Of a DNA stretch of 64,000 nt, positions 5,679-15,831 are shown in pieces. Origin of the DNA: Planotetraspora sp. A-T 1434 (GTDB taxonomy: Bacteria; Actinomycetota; Actinomycetes; Streptosporangiales; Streptosporangiaceae); the NCBI RefSeq assembly GCF_025420585.1, contig NZ_JAOEGB010000006.1:1-64000 (forward strand), written 5' to 3'. The position numbers were made by a program, and so were the translations under genes. The stretch's first letter is position 1. Each line of letters begins with the position of its first letter. The notes below the pieces were generated by a model that had not been told where the DNA came from, did not search any database, and saw nothing but the letters and a program-made list of their open reading frames with translations.

Positions 5679-6977
5679 TCACATCCGGGCGGCGAGCTTG
5701 AACTCCTCGCGCGGGCGCTGCAGGGCGCCCAGCGACACGATCTCCCTGGGGAAGAACAGCCCGAGGGTCCAGTCCATCAGGATGCGGGTCTTCTTGTTGA
5801 CGGTCGGCATCCGGGTCAGGTGGTAGGTCCGGTGCATGAACCAGGCGGGGAACCCGCGCAGCTCACGGCCGTAGATCTGCGCCACTCCCTTGTAGAGCCC
5901 GAGGCTGGCCACCGATCCGGCGTTCTTGTGCCGGTACGGCTCTCGCGTGCCGCCCCTGATGGTCGCCAGGAGGTTGTCGGCCAGCCGCCTGGCCTGCCGT
6001 ACGGCATGCTGGGCGTTGGGCGGGCACATCTCGCCCGGCCTGGTGAGGTCGGGGACGGCGGCCGCGTCCCCCGCGGTGAAGGCGAAGGGCGCCCCCTCGA
6101 TCTGCAGGAACGCGTTGGCCTTGACCCGGCTCCTGTCGTCCAGGGGCAGGTCTCCGGCCTTGACGAGCGGGTTCGGCTTGACGCCCGCCGTCCACACGAG
6201 CGTCTCGGCGTCGAACTCGTCACCGTCGTCGAGCACGATGTGCCCGCCCTCCATCGACTTCAGGCGGGTGCCGGTGCGAACCTCGATGCCGCGTCTGCGC
6301 AGCTCCTGGGCGGTCCACCGGCCCATGTCGGCCCCGACCTCCGGCAGGATGCGGTCGGTGGCCTCGACGAGGATCCAGCGCATGTCCTCCCGGCGGAGAC
6401 CCTCGAAGAACTTGAGGGCGTCGCTGGCCATGTCCTCCAGCTCGGCGAGCGCCTCGACGCCGGCGTATCCCCCGCCGACGAAGACGAAGGTCAGCGCCCG
6501 GCGCCGGACCTCCTCGACCGGGGTGGAGGCGGCGATGTCGAGCTTGCCGAGCACGTGGTTGCGGAGGTGGATGGCCTCCTCGACGGTCTTGAAGCCGATG
6601 CCGTGCTCGGCCAGCCCGGGAATCGGGAGGAGCCGGGACACCGAGCCGGGGGCGAAGACCAGGTAGTCGTAGTCGATCGTGAGGTCGGGGCCCTCATGGG
6701 GCTGGAACTCGGCCTTGCGGTCGGCCAGGCGCACGGAGGTGACCCGCCCGCTGAGGATCTGACACGAGGGCAGGACCCGCCTGAGCGGGACGACCACGTG
6801 GCGCGCCTCGATGTTCCCGGCGGCGGCCTCTGGGAGGAACGGCTGGTAGGTCATGTAGGAGTCGTAGTCGGCGACGGTGATGCGGGCCTCGCCGCGGTGG
6901 AGCTTGCGCTGCAGGCGGAGAGCCGTGTACATGCCGACGTACCCGCCGCCGACGATCAGGATCCGTGGGACAGCCAT
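5679..6977 (-). CDS. ndh: Type II NADH:quinone oxidoreductase
   Basis: 432 residues, close to the usual NDH-2 length. It oxidises NADH and reduces menaquinone at the membrane without pumping protons. FAD-binding GGGYVG at residues 10-15, a second Rossmann motif VGGGYAGVEALAEL for NADH near residue 170, and the FAD-contacting FTAGDAAAVPD near residue 295 are all visible. The C-terminal region (FPAWFMHRTYHLTRMP) contains the amphipathic membrane-association segment. It stands apart from its neighbours, with a convergent terminator downstream. Confidence 0.92.
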   Translation of the reverse strand: MAVPRILIVGGGYVGMYTALRLQRKLHRGEARITVADYDSYMTYQPFLPEAAAGNIEARHVVVPLRRVLPSCQILSGRVTSVRLADRKAEFQPHEGPDLTIDYDYLVFAPGSVSRLLPIPGLAEHGIGFKTVEEAIHLRNHVLGKLDIAASTPVEEVRRRALTFVFVGGGYAGVEALAELEDMASDALKFFEGLRREDMRWILVEATDRILPEVGADMGRWTAQELRRRGIEVRTGTRLKSMEGGHIVLDDGDEFDAETLVWTAGVKPNPLVKAGDLPLDDRSRVKANAFLQIEGAPFAFTAGDAAAVPDLTRPGEMCPPNAQHAVRQARRLADNLLATIRGGTREPYRHKNAGSVASLGLYKGVAQIYGRELRGFPAWFMHRTYHLTRMPTVNKKTRILMDWTLGLFFPREIVSLGALQRPREEFKLAARM

Positions 6978-6995
6978 GGGTGTCCCCTACCCGGT

Positions 6996-7409
6996 CTAAA
7001 CCAGGAAACGCATGGTGACTGTCGTCCCATTGGCCCCGGTTCGCGCGTCGAGGTCCGCGCTCAGCAGCCGGGCCACCCACAGCCCCATTCCGCTGGTGGC
7101 GTTCTCCCTCGGCGGTGTGTGCCCGGGAGTCCCCTCCGGATGCCACTGCCTGCCATCGTCGTGGACCTCGACCACGAGGGCCTCACCGTCGTCCCATATG
7201 CGCAGCCGCGCCTTGGTGGAACCGTGGGTCACGGCGTTCGTGGCGACCTCGTTGAGCGCCACGAGGAAGTCCCCGACGGCGTCCTCGCTCATGCCGCGCC
7301 GGCGTGCCTGGGCAGCGGCGAACTCCCGCACGTCGGGCAGATCGGCTAAGGAGAAGGTCAGGTCCTTGGCCGTCTCTGCGACGGGCGGCGGAACGCCGTC
7401 TTCATTCAC
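6996..7409 (-). CDS. RsbW-like anti-sigma factor / serine kinase (HATPase_c_2)
   Basis: 137-residue GHKL ATPase of the RsbW/SpoIIAB type. The N box is intact (LNEVATNAVTHG), the G1 region reads VEVHDDGRQW, and the G2 box reads SGMGLWVARLL. Such proteins sequester a SigB/SigF-type sigma factor or phosphorylate a STAS antagonist. It lies just downstream of the sigma-factor gene on the same strand and close to a STAS gene, so it is the obvious kinase for this cluster. Partner identity is inferred from position. Confidence 0.88.
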   Translation of the reverse strand: MNEDGVPPPVAETAKDLTFSLADLPDVREFAAAQARRRGMSEDAVGDFLVALNEVATNAVTHGSTKARLRIWDDGEALVVEVHDDGRQWHPEGTPGHTPPRENATSGMGLWVARLLSADLDARTGANGTTVTMRFLV

Positions 7410-7531
7410 CCGGTAACGCCTCCCACCGGATATCGCTCAGCCGTACGACCTGGAGGGTCGCGGCATACGGACGAAGATACCCCGGGGCACCGCCGCCGTG
7501 GCGGCGGTGCCCCGGGCACCGCTGTGCGCCG

Positions 7532-8311
7532 TCATCCCGCGACGAGCTCGGAACGCAGCTGGTCGAGGGTCTTGCGGAGGATCCGCGAGACGTGCATCTG
7601 AGATATGTCGAACTCCGCGGCGATCTCGGCCTGGGTCATGTTGCCATAGAACCGCAGCAGAAGGATGTTCTTCTCCCGCTCGGGGAGAAGGTCGATGAGG
7701 GGCTTCACGGCCTCGCGGTCCACGAGGGTGGCCAGTGCGTCGTCCTCATCGGGGAGGACGTCGCCGAGCGCGGCCGCGTCGTCGTCCGCGCCCAGCGGCG
7801 CGTCGAGGGAGAGCGTGCTGTACGCCGCGGAGGCGTCCATGGTGAGCAGCATGTCCTCTTCGGAGATGCGCATCTTCTTCGCGAGCTCGGCGACCGTGGG
7901 GAACCGGCCGAGCTCCTGGGTCATGTCGGCGACGAGCCGGTTCAGCTCGGAGCGCCGCTCCTGGTAGAGGCGGGGCACCCGGACGGCCCAGGTGCGGTCG
8001 CGGAAGTGCCGCTTGACCTCGCCCGTCATGGTGACCATCGCGTAGCCGCGGAAGCTGTGCCCCAGGCTGGGGTCGAAGCCGTTGATGGCCTTCATCAGAC
8101 CCACGTAGGCGGCCTGGAGAAGGTCCTCCATGGGCTCGCCCCGGTTGAGGTACCGCCTGGCGATGTCCCTCGCCATGGGGCGGTGCATCTCGACGATCAT
8201 TTCGCGGAGGCGTTCCCGCCGCTCCTCGGACAGGCCGTCCTCGGCCAGCTCGGCCAGAAGTTCCTCGGCGGTCGGATTGCTGATGGTCGCTACTCGGACC
8301 TCGGCAGCCAT
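7532..8311 (-). CDS. SigB/SigF-family RNA polymerase sigma factor
   Basis: About 259 residues. The frame extends to 8365, but the ATG at 8311 has a GAGGGG site at good spacing, so I prefer it. Region 2 reads MARDIARRYLNRGEPMEDLLQ...GFDPSLGHSFRGYAMVTMTGEVKRHFRD; region 3 has RSELNRLVADMTQELGRFP; region 4 has REKNILLLRFYGNMTQAEIA and DISQMHVSRILRKTL. This is the SigB/F/G group controlled by partner switching, and the adjacent RsbW-like kinase and STAS gene fit. It probably directs a stress or development regulon. Confidence 0.92.
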   Translation of the reverse strand: MAAEVRVATISNPTAEELLAELAEDGLSEERRERLREMIVEMHRPMARDIARRYLNRGEPMEDLLQAAYVGLMKAINGFDPSLGHSFRGYAMVTMTGEVKRHFRDRTWAVRVPRLYQERRSELNRLVADMTQELGRFPTVAELAKKMRISEEDMLLTMDASAAYSTLSLDAPLGADDDAAALGDVLPDEDDALATLVDREAVKPLIDLLPEREKNILLLRFYGNMTQAEIAAEFDISQMHVSRILRKTLDQLRSELVAG

Positions 8312-8496
8312 CTGCGCAGTCCCCTCGTATTTCTTGCGAGGCGCCGACGGCCGGGGGTCACCCACGCAGAAGGCATGCCTCGCTACAGTATCGAGACGAG
8401 GCCCTCTGCTGGACCTCTGGTTCAGTATATTGCCCCAAAATCGGGAGTATCACCACCCCTTCGGCACCAGTAATGTTGCCGCAGAGGAGGCGCGAG

Positions 8497-8853
8497 GTGT
8501 CTAACAACGGTCTGTTGTCCCTGAGCTCCACCACGGCCGGTGGCATCGTGGTGGTCCATATCGACGGCATTCTCGACGCCACGACTCGGGAGCAGTTCTC
8601 GGACTACCTGGACACGGTGGCGGAGGACCACGGCCCGGACATGATCCTCGACCTGGGCAAGGTCACGTTCATGGACTCCCGGGCACTCGGCCTTATCGTG
8701 CACCACTGGCAGCGCTCCACCACCGCCGGCGGTAACTTCGCGCTGGTCTCCGTGCAGTATCCGAGCTCCAAGGTGATGTGGGTGACCGGCCTGTCGCAGC
8801 GCCTGCCGCTCTTCGACACCCTCGACGAGGCGCTCGCGGCCTTCACCGCGTGA
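8497..8853 (+). CDS. STAS-domain anti-sigma factor antagonist
   Basis: 118 residues from GTG 8497, chosen because GAGGAGG sits six bases upstream; an ATG at 8473 in frame lacks a site. Single STAS domain: IVVVHIDGILDATTREQFSDYL, then DMILDLGKVTFMDSRALGLIV. In SpoIIAA/RsbV the loop reads DSSG or DSTG with the phosphorylated Ser/Thr second; here it is DSRAL, with Arg at that position. The neighbouring Ser remains. Divergent from the sigma-factor gene. Antagonist role is inferred from family and context. Confidence 0.87.
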   Translation: MSNNGLLSLSSTTAGGIVVVHIDGILDATTREQFSDYLDTVAEDHGPDMILDLGKVTFMDSRALGLIVHHWQRSTTAGGNFALVSVQYPSSKVMWVTGLSQRLPLFDTLDEALAAFTA

Positions 8854-8913
8854 ACAGCCGCCCAGCGTGAACAGCCGCTCGCCGCCTTCGCCGCGTAAAA
8901 CAGTCCGCAGCCG

Positions 8914-9621
8914 CTACGGCGTGGCGCCCCCGTGCTTCTGCTGGTGCTCGGTCACGAGCAGCCTGGCCAGGTCGGCGACCTTGACCTGGTGGTGCTGGGA
9001 CACCCTTCTGAGCTCCTCGAACGCCGCCTCGGCCGAGCATCCGCTCTTCGACATGATGATGCCCTTGGCCTGGTCGATGACCGACCGCCCGGCGAGCGCC
9101 TCCTGCATCTGGGCGGCCCCCGTGAGGACGTCGTCGTACTCCCAGATGTTCGCCAGGGCCACCGTGATCTGCTCGCGGAGCAGGCCCATCAGCGACTCCC
9201 CGTCTGTGAACACGCCGGGCCGCACGCCGTACAGGCCGACGATCACGACCGCGTGGTCCACCTCGATCGGCAGGACGAGCACCGACCGCACGCCGTGCCG
9301 TACGGCCGTCGCCGCGTAGCGGGGCCAGCGGGGGTCGCGCATGACGTCGGGGACGGCGACCTGCCGCCCGGAGGACAGCGCCTCCCTGGACGGGCCCTCG
9401 CGGAGGTCGCGCTCGCGGTCGGTCAGCGCGATGAGCTCGCTGTGGGAGGCCGCGAGCAGGACCCGTTCCTCCATCCACAGCTCGGCGGTCCCGCCCGCGC
9501 AGCCCGGCACGCCGTGCGCGACGGCCTCGGTGATGCCACGAAGGACGCTCTCGCAGGATGTTCCCTCGGTCACACGCCCCAGAGCGGCGAGGTCACGCGC
9601 GAGGATGGATGTTGTCTCCAT
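8914..9621 (-). CDS. GAF-ANTAR transcription antitermination regulator
   Basis: 235 residues. An N-terminal GAF domain covers about residues 15-150 (ELWMEERVLLAASHSE, VPDVMRDPRWPRYAATAV, VRSVLVLPIEV). A C-terminal ANTAR RNA-binding domain covers about 165-225 (ALAGRSVIDQAKGIIMSKSG, EAAFEELRRVSQHHQVKVAD). ANTAR proteins bind paired hairpins in nascent RNA to prevent termination. Divergent from the SpoIIE-type phosphatase gene with a 98-base shared promoter region. The GAF ligand is unknown; the RNA targets are not visible here. Confidence 0.9.
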   Translation of the reverse strand: METTSILARDLAALGRVTEGTSCESVLRGITEAVAHGVPGCAGGTAELWMEERVLLAASHSELIALTDRERDLREGPSREALSSGRQVAVPDVMRDPRWPRYAATAVRHGVRSVLVLPIEVDHAVVIVGLYGVRPGVFTDGESLMGLLREQITVALANIWEYDDVLTGAAQMQEALAGRSVIDQAKGIIMSKSGCSAEAAFEELRRVSQHHQVKVADLARLLVTEHQQKHGGATP

Positions 9622-9719
9622 GGTAGAAAGACCATTCCCATAGTTTCCGTGTTAATCCGGGCTGGATCGATTACATCCGGTCTTTGGCGTAGCGTCTACG
9701 TCGTGAGAGGGGGGCAGCG

Positions 9720-11525
9720 TTGGCCGACATAGCCGAGCTTGAGCGCGCGCTGAGCGGGCTCGCCGACCGCATCGCCACCCTACGGGACAAACCCGAGCCG
9801 GGTGCCGCCCTGCGCGAGCTGGAGGCGGCGGAGGAGCTGCTCAGGAGCGCGCTGGGCGAGCTGGTGCGCGGCCGCAGACGCAAGGACGGCGGCAACCAGA
9901 GGGAGCAGAAGCTCCTGCGGCAGGTCTTCCGCGCGCTCCCGGTGCCGGTGATCATCATGGACACGGGCGGCACGGTCCGGCGGATCAACAACGAGACCAC
10001 GCGCCTCCTCGGCAGCCCCGCGGGCTACCTCATCGGCCGGGCCTTCCCGCTGCTGATCGACGTGGCCAGCCGGGCGGCGTTCCGCTCACACCTGACGGCC
10101 GTCCTGCGCAGCGAGGAGAGCGCGGCGTTCCAGACCCGCCTGGCCCACCAGGGCCGGACGCACACGGTCCGGCTGGTCCTCAGCAGGCTGCGCATGCCGG
10201 GCGAGCCGCAGGAGATGATCGCGGCGGTCGCGCTGCCCACGGAGGTGCAGCTCCTGGAGGCCCCCGATCCCGGCGGAGCCCCCGACGAGTCGGTGATCAT
10301 GGCGGCGGCCCGGCGGCATGAGCTGCTCTCCCGGCTGACCAGGCTCCTGCTCGACGAGGAGAGCCTGCGCGAGCCGGTGGCGCTCATACGGGCCGCCCGC
10401 CTGCTCGCCGCGGAGACGGCCGACTGGGTGGTCGCCGACGTGATCAGGGACGGGGTCCTCCACCGGGCGACCGTCATCGGCCCCAGCGACCAGCCGATCA
10501 CCCGCCTACAGCGGGCCATGGAGACGATGCCCCCGGCCGCCGCGCCGATCGTCGGCCAGGTCCTCGCCACGCAGAGCGGCATCGTGCACGAGATGCTGTC
10601 CGACGACTCGCTGCTGGGCGGCGACGTGCTGCAGGCCATGCGGGCCGGCTCGCTGCTCAGCGTGCCCATCCGCACCGACGACGAGGTCCGCGGCGTCCTC
10701 ACGCTGGTACGGCTGCGCGACCGGCCGCCGTTCGGCCTGGCGGACCTCGGCCTCCTCGAGGAGATCGGCCTCCACCTGGGGCTGGCCATGCGGGCGCAGC
10801 GCAGCTTCCAGCGGAGGGCGCACGCCGCCGACACGTTGCAGACGGGCGTCCTCCCCCGCACGTTGCCGGACATCCCGGGCTTCGAGACGGCGGCGATCTA
10901 CCACCCCGGGTCGGGGCTGCGGGCGATCGGCGGCGAGTTCTACGACGTGTTCCCGGTGAAGAACGGCTGGGGCTTCATGATCGGCAGCGCGGCCGGCAGG
11001 GGCGAGGAGGCCGCCGCCGTCACCGCGATGGTCCGCAACGGGCTGCGCGTGCTCAGCGTCTACGAGAGCGATCCGGGTGAGGCTCTGCGCAAGGTCAACG
11101 ACGCGCTCGTCGCGCAGAACACGGGGCTGTTCGTGATGGCCGCCGCTGGCTTCGTGCGCGGCCGCAAGGTACGGCTGGCCTCCGCCGGGCACCACCCCGC
11201 GGCGTTGCTCCAGCCCGACGGCGGCGTCCGGTTCTCCGATGGCGGCGGCGTCCCCCTCGGGTTCGAGGAGGGCTCGGTGCCCGCCACGGAGGAGCTGACC
11301 CTGGCCGCCGGGGAGACCCTCGTCCTCTACTCCGACGGCCTGGTCGGCTCACAGAGCGCCGCCGGGGAGAACTACGGCGAGGACCGGCTCACCGAGGTCC
11401 TCGCCCGCTGCGTGGGCCAGCCGCCCGCCGGTGTGGTGAAGGCGATCGAGGAGGACCACCGGGCGTTCTGCGGCGCCCACGTCGTCGACGAGATCACCGT
11501 GCTGACCCTGCGACGGTCGCGATGA
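9720..11525 (+). CDS. PAS-GAF-SpoIIE (PP2C) serine phosphatase
   Basis: 601 residues from a TTG start at 9720 preceded by GAGAGGGGGG. Order: coiled coil (1-55, LERALSGLADRIATLRDK), PAS (about 70-180, VPVIIMDTGGTVRRINNE), GAF (about 195-365), and a C-terminal PP2C-like SpoIIE domain (about 385-600) with GGEFYDVFPVKNGWGFMIG, LASAGHHPAALL and LVLYSDGLVGSQ. The usual GGDWYD/GD metal motifs are altered: GGEFYDVF and IGSAAGRGEEA in place of IGDVxGHG. RsbU/RsbP-like enzymes dephosphorylate STAS antagonists. Catalytic competence is uncertain because of the altered second motif. Confidence 0.88.
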   Translation: MADIAELERALSGLADRIATLRDKPEPGAALRELEAAEELLRSALGELVRGRRRKDGGNQREQKLLRQVFRALPVPVIIMDTGGTVRRINNETTRLLGSPAGYLIGRAFPLLIDVASRAAFRSHLTAVLRSEESAAFQTRLAHQGRTHTVRLVLSRLRMPGEPQEMIAAVALPTEVQLLEAPDPGGAPDESVIMAAARRHELLSRLTRLLLDEESLREPVALIRAARLLAAETADWVVADVIRDGVLHRATVIGPSDQPITRLQRAMETMPPAAAPIVGQVLATQSGIVHEMLSDDSLLGGDVLQAMRAGSLLSVPIRTDDEVRGVLTLVRLRDRPPFGLADLGLLEEIGLHLGLAMRAQRSFQRRAHAADTLQTGVLPRTLPDIPGFETAAIYHPGSGLRAIGGEFYDVFPVKNGWGFMIGSAAGRGEEAAAVTAMVRNGLRVLSVYESDPGEALRKVNDALVAQNTGLFVMAAAGFVRGRKVRLASAGHHPAALLQPDGGVRFSDGGGVPLGFEEGSVPATEELTLAAGETLVLYSDGLVGSQSAAGENYGEDRLTEVLARCVGQPPAGVVKAIEEDHRAFCGAHVVDEITVLTLRRSR

Positions 11526-11550
11526 CGATCGGGCAGAGCAGGGCGGTGAC

Positions 11551-12420
11551 GTGGGATTTGCCGCCGGACTCGCTCGGATGGTGCACTTGGCTGTTGTGAA
11601 GATGCGGCCAGGAGACCATCGCTCGGTGACCTACTCGGACGAGGCCGAGCTCGAGCCGGTGCTCGCCCCTTTCGTTTCCGAAGGGCTGGCGGGATCCGAC
11701 AAGGTCCTCTACTTCACCGACGTCACCCATCCGGCCATCGTGACCGGGCTGCTGCGGGCGTGGGGCGTCGGCCCCGACGCGTACATCGCGGACGGGCGGC
11801 TCGACGTGCGCCAGATGGAGACGACGGACCCCGATCTGCTGGTGGACCAGCTCGCCGACGCCGCCCGGCAGGCGCGGGCCCAGGGCTACCGGGCTCTGCG
11901 CGTCACCGGCGAGATGAGCTGGGCCGTCCGCGAGGGCACGGCCAGGCTGGCCGCCTACGAGACCAAGGTCCAGACCCTGTTCGACACCGGCCTCGCAATG
12001 GGGATCTGCCAATACGACCGGCGGCTCTTCCAGCCAGTCGTTTTGGCCGAATTACAGCGGATACATCAGGGAAGAGACATGGACCTGGAGTTCGACGGCG
12101 CGCTTCTGCGCATCCGGCGAACCGTCCATCCGCCCGGCATCCGCGTGGAAGGCGAAGTGGACGCGAACACGCTCGGAGAGCTGAACAAGGCACTCGCGTC
12201 GGCGGTGCTCCGACAGCCGGGCGACGTCCACGTGGACCTGGGCGAGGTCTCCTTCATCGATCTTTCCGGCCTGCGGGCGCTCGTCGACACCGCGGCCAGG
12301 ATCGGCGACGGCCGGTCCCTCGTGCTGGACCCCGTTCCCGAGCACGTCCTCCAACTGATCAAGCTGATCGGCTGGGACGGCACACCCGGTTTGAGATTGC
12401 GTGGGGGCGATCCCCGATGA
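11551..12420 (+). CDS. MEDS-STAS fusion protein
   Basis: Up to 289 residues; alternative starts exist at 11578 and nearby. The N-terminal MEDS (DcmR-like sensory) domain spans about 20-165: HRSVTYSDEAELEPVLAPFV, KVLYFTDVTHPAIVTGLL, LRVTGEMSWAVREG, AMGICQYDRRLF. The C-terminal STAS domain spans about 180-285: IRVEGEVDANTLGELNKAL, VHVDLGEVSFIDLSGLRALV. The STAS loop IDLSG keeps a Ser at the phosphorylation position. Its stop overlaps the ATG of a second MEDS protein carrying an ATPase domain, so the two are probably made together and act as a sensor pair. Confidence 0.87.
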   Translation: MGFAAGLARMVHLAVVKMRPGDHRSVTYSDEAELEPVLAPFVSEGLAGSDKVLYFTDVTHPAIVTGLLRAWGVGPDAYIADGRLDVRQMETTDPDLLVDQLADAARQARAQGYRALRVTGEMSWAVREGTARLAAYETKVQTLFDTGLAMGICQYDRRLFQPVVLAELQRIHQGRDMDLEFDGALLRIRRTVHPPGIRVEGEVDANTLGELNKALASAVLRQPGDVHVDLGEVSFIDLSGLRALVDTAARIGDGRSLVLDPVPEHVLQLIKLIGWDGTPGLRLRGGDPR

Positions 12421-13346
12421 GCGAAATGATCCATCAGGCCAGTCTGTACGGCTCGGACGCGGAGTTCCTCGAGATGGCCGTGCCGTTCATCCGGGACGGC
12501 CTGGCGAACGGCGAGCCGGTCATGGTGACGACGACGTCGGGCAACCTCGAGCTTCTCGGCGAGGCCCTGGGCGACGACGCCAGGCACGTCGACTATGCCG
12601 AGACGGCATATTTCGGCCGAAGGACGGCGCAGCGGGCCACGGCGTTCCTCCGCTACTGGCAGCGCTACGCCGACCACAAGCGGGTGCGGATCCTCGCGGA
12701 GCCCGTCTGGTCGGGGAAGTCGGCCCGGGACGTGCTCGCGTGGAAGCGGATGGAGTCGGGCCTCAACCTGATCCTCGCCGGGACCGGCGTCTGGATGATC
12801 TGCCCGTACGACACCCGCACGGTCGGCGCCGACGTCGCCCGGGACGCCATGCGGACCCACCCGTCGCTGAGCTCGGACGGCAGGCAGATAGAGCCGTCAC
12901 CGACCTACGCCGACCCGGTGGACTTCATCGGCCAGTGCGACGCGGCGCCGCTGCCCGAGGCCCCGCGGGGCTGCCTCACCGTAGCGATCGACGACCTGCA
13001 GGACGTGCGCCGCCTCGTGGCCGAGGAGGGGCGCCGGCGTGGCCTGACCGGCGAGCGGGCGACCATGCTGGCCGTGGCCGTCCACGAGGCGAGCCGCTAC
13101 CTGGGCGTGCCGCTCAGTGCCCGCATCTGGGAGAGGTTCGGCGCTCTCGTCTGCGACCTGCGAGGACAGCGCGGCCCGATCTCCGACCCCCTTGCCGGGT
13201 TCCGGCCGCCGGGTCCGGAGGAGCGGCAGGAGGACGGCCTCTGGCTGGCCCGGCAGGTCTGCGAGTACGTCGACATCCGGTCGGACGACTCCGGCTGCAC
13301 GATCAGGCTCCAGGCGGCCACGTCACGCCTGCAAGAGAGCGCATGA
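12417..13346 (+). CDS. RsbA-like MEDS-HATPase anti-sigma regulatory protein with degenerate ATPase
   Basis: 309 residues, start fixed by the ATGA overlap at 12417. MEDS domain at about 1-165 (SDAEFLEMAVPFIRDGLANG, VRILAEPVWSGKSARDVLAW, WMICPYDTRTVG), then an RsbW-type fold at about 195-305. The N box is degenerate: AVAVHEASRYLGVP, where active kinases have E-x3-N (compare NEVATN in the 6996-7409 protein). The G2 region is reduced to EDGLWLARQVC. It probably binds partners without normal kinase activity. Related RsbA proteins are known in actinobacteria. Confidence 0.85.
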   Translation: MSEMIHQASLYGSDAEFLEMAVPFIRDGLANGEPVMVTTTSGNLELLGEALGDDARHVDYAETAYFGRRTAQRATAFLRYWQRYADHKRVRILAEPVWSGKSARDVLAWKRMESGLNLILAGTGVWMICPYDTRTVGADVARDAMRTHPSLSSDGRQIEPSPTYADPVDFIGQCDAAPLPEAPRGCLTVAIDDLQDVRRLVAEEGRRRGLTGERATMLAVAVHEASRYLGVPLSARIWERFGALVCDLRGQRGPISDPLAGFRPPGPEERQEDGLWLARQVCEYVDIRSDDSGCTIRLQAATSRLQESA

Positions 13347-13457
13347 TTTTCCCGATTAGGTGTTTAGCGGGAATCAGACTAAGGTAAACAGCATCATAGA
13401 TCGTGCCTAAGACGCAGGCACACCCTTTCAAGCCTTTCCGTCTTGAGGTGTGCTGCC

Positions 13458-14504
13458 ATGGATATCGCGATCGTTTCCGCTCACGAGCTGACCCCTGACA
13501 CCCCGGCCATCGCGCGCGAACTGGCTCGGGGCCACCGGGTGACTGTCTACACGCGTTCCAAGGCCAAGGGGACCTCCGTCGAGCATGTCCCGGCCGGGCC
13601 CGACATGGAGCTCTCCGAGAGCGACCTTCTGCCCTACATCTCCGACTTCAGCGCGGGGCTGCGGCGGCGGTGGGCGAAGAACCGCCCCGACATCATCCAC
13701 GCGCACTCGTGGACCAGCGGCCTCGCCGCCATCGCCGGCTCCGAGGGGCTCGGCGTTCCGGTCACCCAGACCTTCCACGCGCACGACACCGAGACGCCCG
13801 CGCCGGTCCGGCGGCTGGAGTGCGCGATCGGCCGCCGCGCCCGCGCCGTGATCGCCACCTGCGCGGACGAGGAGTCCGAGCTGATCCGGATGGGCGTCCC
13901 CCGGCGCAACATCTCCGTCGTCCCCCACGGGGTCGACATCGAGCGGTTCCGCCGCCAGGGCCCGGCGTTCCCCCGCGGGGAGCGGCCGCGCCTCCTCCAC
14001 GTCGGGCACATCGGGGCCGCCAGCGCGGTGGACGCGCTGCTCACCGTCCCGGAGGCCGAGCTGGTGATCGCGGGCGGCGACGACCTCAGCATCGAGCGGC
14101 TGCGCGTCCGCGCCAAGGACCGCGGCGTGGCCGACCGGGTCGAACTGCTGGGCATGGTGCCCCACACGGCGATGCCGAAGCTCATGCGCAGCGCCGACCT
14201 CGTGCTGACGCTCCCGCCGGCCGTTCCGACCGGCACGGCGGCGCTGGAGGCCATGGCCTGCGGCATCCCGGTGATCGCCTCGGCCGCCGGAGCCCACCTC
14301 GACTCGGTCGTGGACGGCGTGACCGGCTTCCTGATCCGGCCGGACCGGCCGGCCGAGCTGTCCGTGCGGATCCGCCAGCTCCTGGGCGACCCGACGCTGC
14401 GCACGGCGATCGGCTACGCCGCCGCCGACCGCGCCCGCTCCCGCTACTCGGTGGAGCGCATCAGCATGGAGCTCCTCCGGGTCTACGAGAAGACCTGTGC
14501 CTGA
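13458..14504 (+). CDS. Glycosyltransferase family 1/4 (GT-B)
   Basis: 348 residues from the ATG at 13458, preceded by GAGGTG; a TTG at 13443 is in frame but less likely. GT-B fold: N-terminal domain with IIHAHSWTSGLAAIAG and VTQTFHAHDTETPAP, C-terminal sugar-nucleotide domain with VVPHGVDIERFRR, RLLHVGHIGAASAVDALL and the E-x7-E element GTAALEAMACGIPVIAS. It resembles group 1 transferases that build cell-surface glycans or glycolipids. No operon partner, so donor and acceptor are unknown. Could be connected with the following GH16-type lipoprotein. Confidence 0.85.
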   Translation: MDIAIVSAHELTPDTPAIARELARGHRVTVYTRSKAKGTSVEHVPAGPDMELSESDLLPYISDFSAGLRRRWAKNRPDIIHAHSWTSGLAAIAGSEGLGVPVTQTFHAHDTETPAPVRRLECAIGRRARAVIATCADEESELIRMGVPRRNISVVPHGVDIERFRRQGPAFPRGERPRLLHVGHIGAASAVDALLTVPEAELVIAGGDDLSIERLRVRAKDRGVADRVELLGMVPHTAMPKLMRSADLVLTLPPAVPTGTAALEAMACGIPVIASAAGAHLDSVVDGVTGFLIRPDRPAELSVRIRQLLGDPTLRTAIGYAAADRARSRYSVERISMELLRVYEKTCA

Positions 14505-14586
14505 GCGGACGGTCCTTAACGGGGTTACGGATGCGGAATTGGCGCGATTCCGTTATAGAAGTTAAATGACGTGATTTGATGCGTTC

Positions 14587-15831
14587 ATGTCACTTCATGG
14601 ACCTGGTTTAGCGGTGGCGGCGGCGATGATCATCGCCGCCGCCACCGCGTGTGCGGGCGGGGATTCCACGAAGGTCTTCACCGCCGCCGGCGAATCCGCC
14701 GCCGACGTGTCCTCCACCTCCGGCGGGGCGGCGGTGACGGCCACACTTACGGCCACAGTCACGGCGACGGTCACCGCCACGGTTCCGGCGGCGGCCCCGG
14801 CCACCCCGTTCAAGCGGCGGGTGACGCCGACGCCCCGGCCGACACCCCCGCCGGCCCACCGGCCGGCACCGCCGGCGCTGACCCTGGCCAAGCCCGCGAA
14901 ACCGAAGCCCCGCGATGTGACCATGATTCCGCCGGAGCCCGCTCCGGACGACGGCTACACGCTCGCGGACCAGCCGTCCGCCAAGGAGGGAACCGTCGTC
15001 CCCGAGCAGCAGGGCGGCGGCGCCTACGGCACGCAGCCGCCGAGCCCGTCCGGCGCCGCCGGCTCGACGGGACGGCCGGGTTCCTCGGGCTCGTCAGGCG
15101 GCGCCAACGGTTCCACCGGCTGGGGCGGCGCCAACGATTCCGGTGGCTCTGGTGGCTCCGGTGGCTCGGGTGGCTCCACGACGGGGGCCGGATGGGGCAG
15201 CCCCATCCTGGTCGAGGACTTCAACGGCACGCAGATCGACCACGGCAAGTGGGGCGTCTACAACTCCCCCAGCGCGCGGACGAACCCCCGAACCTCGCAG
15301 GCGACCAGCGTCGGCGGCGGCATGCTGCGTCTCACCGACGGCTTCTACGGCGGCCGGGACATGTCGGGCGGCGTCTCCAGCTCGCTGAACCAGATGTACG
15401 GCCGGTGGGAGGTCCGCTTCAGGACCGAGCGGGGCGCCGGGTATTCCCCCGTCGTGCTGCTGTGGGGCGAGGAGCGCAAGGCGGAGTTCGCCGAGATCAA
15501 CATCGCGGAGATCGGCGACCCGACCCGCCAGAAGGCCGGCATCTTCGTCCACGTGGGCCACCAGACCGTGGCGCAGAGCGTGATGCGGGCCGACTTCACC
15601 CAGTGGCACACCGTGGCCGTGGACTGGCTGCCCGACCGGCTGACGTTCTGGCTCGACGGCAGCCCGGTCTGGAACTACACCGGTCCCCGGATCCCCGGGA
15701 ACCAGACCATGGGCCTGACGCTGCAGAACGACATCGTGTGCACCCAGTGGGCGCCGTGCCGCGACGCCACCACCCCCGACGCGGTCACGATGTACGTCGA
15801 CTGGGTGCGGATCTACCGGGCTCCCCGGTGA
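14587..15831 (+). CDS. Lipoprotein with GH16-like (concanavalin/glucanase) domain
   Basis: 414 residues. The N terminus has a short lipoprotein signal (VAAAMIIAAATACAGG, lipobox Cys at 22), then a Thr/Pro/Ala linker with TVTATVTATV and a Gly/Ser-rich spacer (SGGSGGSGGSGG), then a GH16 fold from about residue 205 (ILVEDFNGTQIDHGKWGVY, YGRWEVRFRT, WHTVAVDWLPDRLTFWLDG). The catalytic strand reads AEFAEINIAEIGD, where GH16 enzymes have E-x-D-x(x)-E: the central Asp is Asn. It may bind rather than cleave glucan. The 3' end overlaps the convergent PucR gene by 47 bases. Confidence 0.85.
   Translation: MSLHGPGLAVAAAMIIAAATACAGGDSTKVFTAAGESAADVSSTSGGAAVTATLTATVTATVTATVPAAAPATPFKRRVTPTPRPTPPPAHRPAPPALTLAKPAKPKPRDVTMIPPEPAPDDGYTLADQPSAKEGTVVPEQQGGGAYGTQPPSPSGAAGSTGRPGSSGSSGGANGSTGWGGANDSGGSGGSGGSGGSTTGAGWGSPILVEDFNGTQIDHGKWGVYNSPSARTNPRTSQATSVGGGMLRLTDGFYGGRDMSGGVSSSLNQMYGRWEVRFRTERGAGYSPVVLLWGEERKAEFAEINIAEIGDPTRQKAGIFVHVGHQTVAQSVMRADFTQWHTVAVDWLPDRLTFWLDGSPVWNYTGPRIPGNQTMGLTLQNDIVCTQWAPCRDATTPDAVTMYVDWVRIYRAPR

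Follow-up and report, generated by a model that had tools for sequence, protein, structure and literature searches.

Between positions 6996 and 13346 of the stretch of Planotetraspora sp. A-T 1434 DNA analyzed here (contig NZ_JAOEGB010000006.1, positions 1 to 64,000; these 64,000 nucleotides are referred to as the window), seven genes encode an RsbW-type kinase, a sigma factor, a STAS antagonist, an ANTAR protein, a PP2C phosphatase and two proteins in which a MEDS domain is joined either to a STAS domain (MEDS-STAS) or to an RsbW-like ATPase fold (MEDS-ATPase). This domain content had been proposed in an earlier reading made from the sequence alone (the sequence-only reading), and comparison with NCBIfam and Pfam bears it out (Table 1), as does direct inspection for the ATGA overlap of the two MEDS reading frames (12417–12420). 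The product of the sigma gene exceeds the cut-off of TIGR02980 and accordingly belongs to the SigB/SigF/SigG family. Judged from sequence, this is a partner-switching cassette for a sigma factor of the SigB/F type, conserved among Streptosporangiaceae, and what is new in it is the apparent loss of the ATP site in the MEDS-ATPase (hereafter MEDS-pseudoATPase) together with the apparent loss of the phosphosite in MEDS-STAS, both on top of a canonical switch.

Table 1. Genes and leader elements of the partner-switching locus and related features in other genomes (window coordinates unless a locus is named; aa, amino acids; nt, nucleotides; GT, glycosyltransferase).
Feature	Position	Strand	Basis or detail
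FAD/NAD(P) pyridine nucleotide-disulphide oxidoreductase, labeled NDH-like here	5679..6977	-	Pfam
RsbW-type anti-sigma kinase, 137 aa	6996..7409	-	HATPase_c_2 78.4 bits; ATP boxes intact (NEVATNA, DDG, GMGLW)
SigB/SigF/SigG-family sigma factor, 277 aa	7532..8365	-	NCBIfam TIGR02980 270.5 bits (cut-off 234.35)
Core STAS antagonist, 126 aa	8473..8853	+	predicted phospho-acceptor Ser69 in FMDSRAL, codon 8677-8679
GAF-ANTAR protein, 235 aa, predicted RNA-binding antiterminator type	8914..9621	-	Pfam ANTAR 69.8 bits
PAS-GAF-SpoIIE/PP2C phosphatase, 601 aa	9720..11525	+	Pfam SpoIIE 118.4 bits
MEDS-STAS, 280 aa from ATG 11578 (alternative start GTG 11551)	11578..12420	+	MEDS 109.2 bits, STAS_2 56.7 bits
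MEDS-pseudoATPase, 309 aa	12417..13346	+	MEDS 107.6 bits, NF041045 289.2 bits (cut-off 210)
Degenerate SigF-like promoter candidate before the GT gene, GTTT-N16-AGGTAA	13362..13389	+	pattern scan
P1 leader hairpin GTGYYTANGACRCAGRCAC, 19 nt, conserved 7-nt loop	13403..13421	+	pattern search and leader comparison
P2 competing hairpin, CACACC 13419-13424 with GGTGTG 13447-13452, over the presumed GT ribosome-binding site (ATG 13458)	13419..13452	+	
GT4 glycosyltransferase, conserved neighbor	13458..14504	+	Pfam; cluster comparison
GT4 leader with promoter candidate, P1 and competing hairpin	L294, L296-L321		in the window, leader at 13362-13457
Streptacidiphilus MEDS-STAS/MEDS-ATPase fusions	L239:8052-10041, L241:8049-10131		profile and Pfam

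The comparisons that follow draw on a locus sample of 120 stretches (the window plus 59 and 60 loci picked via MEDS matches). The gene order RsbW-sigma-STAS-ANTAR-PP2C-[slot]-GT, where the slot is the space between the PP2C and the glycosyltransferase (GT) genes, defines the cluster and is found in 34 of the 120 stretches. Across the family, MEDS-STAS matches (E-value 1e-30 or better) occur in 126 of 341 genomes and MEDS-ATPase matches (1e-45 or better) in 74; a search of the window genome gave two matches, MEDS-STAS and MEDS-pseudoATPase, as its only MEDS genes. Both exceed the Pfam gathering score for MEDS (PF14417, 29.8 bits).

The ATPase half of MEDS-pseudoATPase is devoid of the residues that characterize GHKL/HATPase kinases (N-box Asn, G1 Asp and G2 Gly-x-Gly): in the alignment with RsbW, the N-box Asn corresponds to Tyr228, the G1 region reads RGQRG, with the Asp lost, and G2 reads EDG, with the first Gly lost. 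Pfam turned out to be a misleading judge of this half and was abandoned in that role: the HATPase domain was not found in the window protein (E-value 0.001) and scored below the cut-off in the MEDS-ATPase of L073. The ATPase fold of the window protein was recovered instead by NCBIfam and by structure prediction, so that the fusion of MEDS to an RsbW fold, as claimed in the sequence-only reading, holds for the fold but not for the Pfam domain or the ATP-site residues. Among 166 distinct MEDS-ATPases from the 120 stretches and 80 named loci, the N-box Asn is kept in 105, of which 97 also have the G1 Asp; this Asp is present in none of the 61 proteins without the Asn, and most of these 61 retain the first G2 Gly that is lost in the window. 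In a FastTree phylogeny of the MEDS part only, thinned at 80% identity (30 STAS-type and 117 ATPase-type rows), three changes are needed to explain 24 ‘lost' and 93 ‘kept' rows, and therefore, the loss of the ATP residues is clustered by lineage. It also follows genomic context: with ‘intact' defined as N-box Asn plus Asp, Glu or Asn at G1, 24 of the 25 MEDS-ATPases located no farther than 8 kb from a sigma gene and a solo RsbW are not intact (L053 is the sole exception), compared with 19 of the 87 found elsewhere, the lineages in this comparison not being independent, which inflates its p-value.

In MEDS-STAS, Leu229 (within FIDLSGL) occupies the position of the phosphorylated Ser of RsbV and SpoIIAA, so that the phosphorylatable Ser/Thr that follows the conserved Asp in these antagonists is missing. 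No Ser/Thr was found at this site in any of 36 MEDS-STAS proteins or in any of 18 solo STAS proteins encoded directly upstream of a MEDS-ATPase. The cysteine of the GDHLC motif, which is present in many other MEDS-STAS proteins, is replaced in the window protein. Lacking the residues for ATP binding and for phosphorylation, the two MEDS proteins probably act by binding alone.

The core of the cluster, in contrast to the MEDS pair, is predicted to be fully equipped for phosphorylation. In 34 of 34 clusters, the solo RsbW keeps its ATP boxes and the core STAS protein has Ser at the phosphosite (FMDS), and, as in RsbU/V/W systems, a sigma factor, RsbW with ATP boxes, STAS with Ser and PP2C are encoded together; by their sequences, RsbW, STAS and PP2C have the residues of a working switch. 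In the classical RsbU/V/W cycle, RsbW binds the sigma factor and phosphorylates STAS, whereas PP2C undoes the phosphorylation, and the core proteins of the window would run this cycle. The median ratios of nonsynonymous to synonymous substitution rates (dN/dS; ten close relatives, eight for MEDS-STAS) are 0.248 for RsbW, 0.202 for the sigma factor and 0.138 for the core STAS protein; at 0.465 and 0.323, respectively, the pseudoATPase half and the STAS half of the MEDS proteins also evolve under purifying selection.

Structural models point to folds that are retained where the catalytic residues are not. The AlphaFold model of MEDS-pseudoATPase (predicted local distance difference test, pLDDT, 92.5; predicted template modeling score, pTM, 0.88) has in its ATPase half a Bergerat fold that aligns with SpoIIAB (Z 15.0, 123 residues, 2.9 Å) and with mycobacterial UsfX (Z 14.8, 113 residues, 2.2 Å). 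The Leptospira response regulator LvrC, which occupied the top Foldseek rows for the MEDS-ATPase, was rejected as the closest structure, with SpoIIAB coming first on realignment. In the MEDS-STAS model (pLDDT 87.5; pTM 0.61, which makes the domain arrangement less sure), the STAS half aligns with RsfB (Z 15.0, 102 residues, 1.7 Å). The modeled MEDS domains match FlaH/KaiC with Z 15.3 in MEDS-STAS and about 11 in MEDS-ATPase, and look like a RecA/KaiC-type fold; conserved Cys and Asp residues of the MEDS domains are Cys129/Asp132 and Cys144/Asp147. Arg198 of MEDS-pseudoATPase, invariant in 47 aligned MEDS-ATPases, aligns with what we take to be Arg23 in the RsbW numbering and with position 20 of SpoIIAB, and Glu224 is nearly invariant in the same 47 rows. 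In MEDS-STAS, Asp195, which by its motif is presumably the equivalent of RsbV Asp23, is kept in at least 90% of 14 rows and is absent from the 90% columns of a wider, 18-row set. In the RsbV-RsbW crystal structure, RsbW Arg23 touches RsbV Asp23, and RsbW Glu49 touches the phosphorylated Ser56 (PMC7340262). The conservation of Arg198, Glu224 and Asp195 thus implies that the docking residues are largely kept where the catalytic ones are lost: as far as alignments and models can tell, the MEDS pair largely keeps the fold and the residues that form the STAS-RsbW contact in the solved relative.

The strongest sign that MEDS-STAS and MEDS-ATPase act on each other is their fusion in Streptacidiphilus jeojiense and S. 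carbonis, where a single open reading frame (ORF) of 647 and 678 residues, respectively, encodes MEDS-STAS-MEDS-HATPase (confirmed by Pfam), with IDLEG at the phosphosite and Leu instead of the N-box Asn. Separate genes are adjacent in several lineages, recurrently but not obligately, which supports the pair as a recurrent arrangement: among 62 MEDS-ATPase ORFs in the 60 stretches of the first search, 11 have MEDS-STAS and 12 have another STAS protein directly upstream, and in 39, no STAS was recognized upstream by profile, one of these being preceded by another MEDS-ATPase. Tandem MEDS-STAS/MEDS-ATPase pairs (L034, L191) and tandem MEDS-ATPase genes in Pseudonocardiales bins (L249, L251, L252, L254, L281) were also noticed and, by profile matches only, STAS-ANTAR (L075/L243) and ANTAR-STAS (L062) ORFs directly upstream of a MEDS-ATPase and a PP2C-HAT ORF near one (L067). 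The two MEDS domains of the pair are not recent copies of each other. STAS-type and ATPase-type MEDS domains fall on two sides of one branch (support 97), and those of the window align with each other only in short stretches (at best, 34 residues at 32%). A recent duplication of one MEDS domain into both genes was therefore rejected, and the ‘matched pair' of the earlier description is not supported as a necessity.

The core of the cluster is constant and the MEDS module is optional. Of the 34 clusters, 8 have MEDS-STAS and pseudoATPase in the slot, 14 have only pseudoATPase, 2 have another STAS with pseudoATPase, 8 have only MEDS-STAS and 2 have a bare STAS; these are not population frequencies because a match to a MEDS protein was the basis for picking the stretches. 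A further sample, based on the P1 hairpin of the GT leader (see below), is the only one with empty slots: in five of its genomes (L300, L301, L303, L314, L316), PP2C adjoins GT and no slot gene was recognized. Among the named loci, five of Planotetraspora and those of Microbispora corallina and Streptosporangium subroseum have both MEDS genes, whereas Microbispora catharanthi, Planomonospora and Planobispora have only the pseudoATPase; within the genus group g71, the slot contains both genes, pseudoATPase alone, MEDS-STAS alone or none. With either gene or both missing from the same slot in related genomes, the fixed ratio that the sequence-only reading had derived from the ATGA overlap is not supported as a necessity.

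The interpretation favored here, which we hold to be about as likely to be right as wrong, treats the MEDS pair as an accessory to the canonical switch, a module that docks under the control of a ligand and does no catalysis, with the adjacent GT4 gene among the likely outputs. Ligand-gated docking on RsbW and/or STAS is proposed because, to judge by their residues, the MEDS proteins cannot join in the chemistry and because there is a precedent, RsbW3 of Mycobacterium smegmatis, which does not phosphorylate RsfB, does not bind SigF, binds RsbW1 and, when overexpressed, raises SigF-dependent expression (PMC7693655); action via heterodimer formation is an assumption of its authors (PMC7693655; also PMC10950880). 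Under the proposed mechanism, the KaiC/RecA-like MEDS domain would bind a ligand and gate docking. MEDS-STAS would be an antagonist that RsbW has no means to inactivate and, once bound to RsbW, would free the sigma factor in a manner irreversible for the kinase, whereas MEDS-pseudoATPase would dock STAS proteins, heterodimerize with RsbW, titrate RsbW or restrain MEDS-STAS. The pair would shift the set point of sigma release, in either direction.

Several observations weigh against this interpretation. Judged from its sequence, MEDS-pseudoATPase may have a divergent Mg/ATP site, and Ser230 of MEDS-STAS, one residue after the phosphosite (a Ser is found there in 8 of 36 proteins), could in principle be an alternative target of phosphorylation. 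Most RsbA-family members retain the ATP residues while their STAS neighbors lack the phosphosite, and for that reason, phosphosite loss alone does not make a non-catalytic pair; furthermore, in L075, the upstream STAS-ANTAR protein has a Ser at the phosphosite, beside an intact MEDS-ATPase. The faster evolution of the pseudoATPase half compared with RsbW also fits slow decay. Finally, the MEDS module is not needed for the core, being partly or wholly missing from some clusters.

A less probable scenario, although one with a real chance of being correct, is that MEDS-pseudoATPase is a second, ATP-free anti-sigma factor with MEDS-STAS as its dedicated antagonist, the two forming a parallel ligand-gated switch for the same sigma factor. 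Such an arrangement agrees with the NCBI family name (anti-sigma factor RsbA), with the alignment of Arg198 to a SpoIIAB residue (a structure of SpoIIAB with SigmaF is solved), with the single-chain fusion, and with M. smegmatis RsbW1, which binds SigF and has no kinase activity on RsfB (PMC7693655). A dedicated pair, however, fits poorly with the 8 of 34 clusters in which MEDS-STAS occurs without pseudoATPase and the 14 of 34 in which pseudoATPase occurs without any slot STAS, and RsbW3 in the M. smegmatis system did not bind SigF (PMC7693655). It is unlikely that the module works like RsbT and RsbS, with MEDS-pseudoATPase activating the neighboring PP2C and MEDS-STAS sequestering MEDS-pseudoATPase. 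RsbT is RsbW-like and RsbS is a STAS protein, and the PP2C, MEDS-STAS and MEDS-ATPase genes follow each other on one strand with short gaps; yet PP2C is retained where the slot is empty or holds one MEDS gene, and the phosphatase has PAS and GAF domains of its own. The known parallel is the activation of RsbU by binding RsbT, which stress frees from sequestration (PMC12143880). Even lower is the probability that a dispensable module, a former RsbA pair drifting to loss once a dedicated RsbW took over, is decaying: the variable slot, with all states in g71, and the dN/dS of the pseudoATPase half are in line with decay, but dN/dS is below 1 in both halves, the MEDS residues are strongly conserved, and the reading frame is open in 24 of 24 clusters that have the pseudoATPase gene. 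The least probable explanation is that of the sequence-only reading, with both arms of the switch fed in fixed ratio by a MEDS-kinase that is catalytic and a MEDS-antagonist that can be phosphorylated. It has in its favor the ATGA overlap and a family-level likeness to RsbW and RsbV, and is weakened by the loss of the ATP-site residues and of the phospho-acceptor and by the presence of each MEDS gene in the slot without the other.

Under the favored interpretation, docking by the MEDS pair would affect the output of the sigma factor, which, by sequence, is likely to include the adjacent GT4 gene, preceded by a promoter candidate and two competing hairpins (Table 1). A SigF-like pattern is present in the GT leader of 33 of the 36 P1-containing stretches with a sigma gene and in 1 of the 10 without, 7 of the 10 having a TTG-CANAAT-type pattern instead; these promoter classes were set after inspecting the leaders, and the lineages are not independent. 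A scan of the 34 clusters for GTTT/GGTT/GTGT-N14-18-GGGTA gave 43 hits (overlapping hits counted twice) compared with 5.0 expected. There is no exact match to the scan pattern in the window, only the degenerate form before its GT gene, and in the region of the sigma and STAS genes, a looser pattern was found in one locus only (L213). The GT transcript would start just before P1.

Of 28 sampled genomes of the family, that of the window included, 27 contain the exact P1 pattern once each, always before the GT gene, and G352 has none. The pattern is absent from 268 further genomes in the class, and the reversed-pattern control gave no hits. When up to three mismatches are allowed, the window genome has a second copy with two mismatches before a GT gene (L295, G000:C52:46785-46803), which alone is no evidence because the reversed control gives 2 hits at the same stringency. 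The 3' arm of P1 with the bases that follow can pair with GGTGTG, and at least four P2 pairs form in 57 of the 58 leaders having this motif (L009, L071 and L072, without GGTGTG, were left out of the count). In the window, P2 is more stable than forced P1 (-19.3 vs -14.2 kcal/mol), which is not so in every row, and a T-run resembling an intrinsic terminator comes after the second hairpin in L015, L025 and L090; by its sequence, the leader looks like an attenuator. In the P1 alignment (24 chosen rows, 15 distinct), 100% of the cells are paired and one pair has changes on both sides; among 500 shuffles, the covariation score was reached in 31 and the number of pairs changed on both sides in 237. 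The covariation support is weak because P1 hardly varies. An Rfam search over 6500–14800 gave nothing above the gathering score, and its eight weak matches look like chance.

The ANTAR gene is present in 43 of the 46 stretches with P1 and in 6 of the 74 without (the same lineages, hence not independent), a co-occurrence that makes the ANTAR protein a candidate for acting on P1. The leader was rejected as a canonical ANTAR target. ANTAR-target RNAs have two stem-loops with hexanucleotide loops bearing A1 and G4, whereas the GT leader has one hairpin, P1, with a 7-nt loop, ANGACRC; shared with actinobacterial ANTAR-target RNAs are a structured leader, a ribosome-binding site within a hairpin and an ANTAR gene nearby (PMC8164766). 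In other lineages (L039, L055, L059, L063, L065, L068, L071), a GT gene with P1 before it has downstream of it, in the same orientation, the gene for a MEDS-ATPase that possesses both the N-box Asn and the G1 Asp, and thus, the link between GT and RsbA is probably older than the cluster. On the opposite flank, the NDH-like gene downstream of rsbW was also recognized in 29 of 34 clusters; the M. smegmatis SigF switch reports on the respiratory chain (PMC10950880), and a link between the two is speculation.

In its most far-reaching form, which is doubtful as a whole, the proposal would make the locus a ‘shadow' partner switch. In it, the antagonist and the anti-sigma kinase that lack chemistry and carry KaiC-like MEDS sensors would turn a metabolite signal into sigma release solely by competitive docking on the working RsbW/RsbV/PP2C, and the sigma factor would drive a GT gene whose attenuator, specific to the family and mostly present once per genome, is read by the ANTAR protein of the cluster. 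The usual account of partner switching is a kinase-phosphatase cycle. Copies of the kinase and of its substrate that both lack chemistry and are present as both, one or neither in closely related genomes would make it possible to test how much sigma control needs phosphorylation, and the adjacent GT leader would serve as a direct reporter of switch output. The pair would also help to tell the role of MEDS domains in actinobacteria, which so far is only predicted (PMC11507031).

The arrangement is not as little described as the sequence-only reading had it. The NF041045 (RsbA family) match spans residues 5–300 of the 309 of MEDS-pseudoATPase, and because this makes it a full-length family member, the pairing of MEDS with an ATPase domain is already catalogued; the window protein shares this architecture and differs in belonging to a sub-group without the N-box Asn that 105 of the 166 MEDS-ATPases keep. 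According to PMC11507031, a hypothesis of 2005 connected MEDS with negative SigB control in actinobacteria. Open-access literature, the only literature searched and hence a weak basis for absence, yielded nothing that joins MEDS with STAS and an anti-sigma factor or MEDS with RsbW and STAS, nor anything on a pseudokinase with an anti-sigma factor and HATPase; passages from PMC8727900, PMC1592074 and PMC8256260 hold nothing bearing on the MEDS pair. With the MEDS regulators of the DcmR and EtnR1 type, the window proteins share the Pfam MEDS domain and differ in their output domains, STAS and pseudoATPase; for such regulators, sensing of small hydrocarbons has been proposed (PMC11507031). RsbW3 in the M. 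smegmatis SigF switch is likewise an RsbW homologue without kinase activity, in its case on RsfB, and its gene is SigF-dependent, with the promoter GTTT-N17-GGGTAA; unlike MEDS-pseudoATPase, RsbW3 is reported to have 194 amino acids with a 30-residue N-terminal extension, and the word MEDS is absent from the paper (PMC7693655). With Bacillus RsbU-RsbV-RsbW and SpoIIAA-AB-E, the locus has in common the core of a sigma factor, RsbW with intact boxes, STAS with Ser and PP2C, to which it adds two MEDS-fused copies that, by their residues, are catalytically silent, a sensory PAS-GAF phosphatase and an ANTAR gene in the middle of the cluster.

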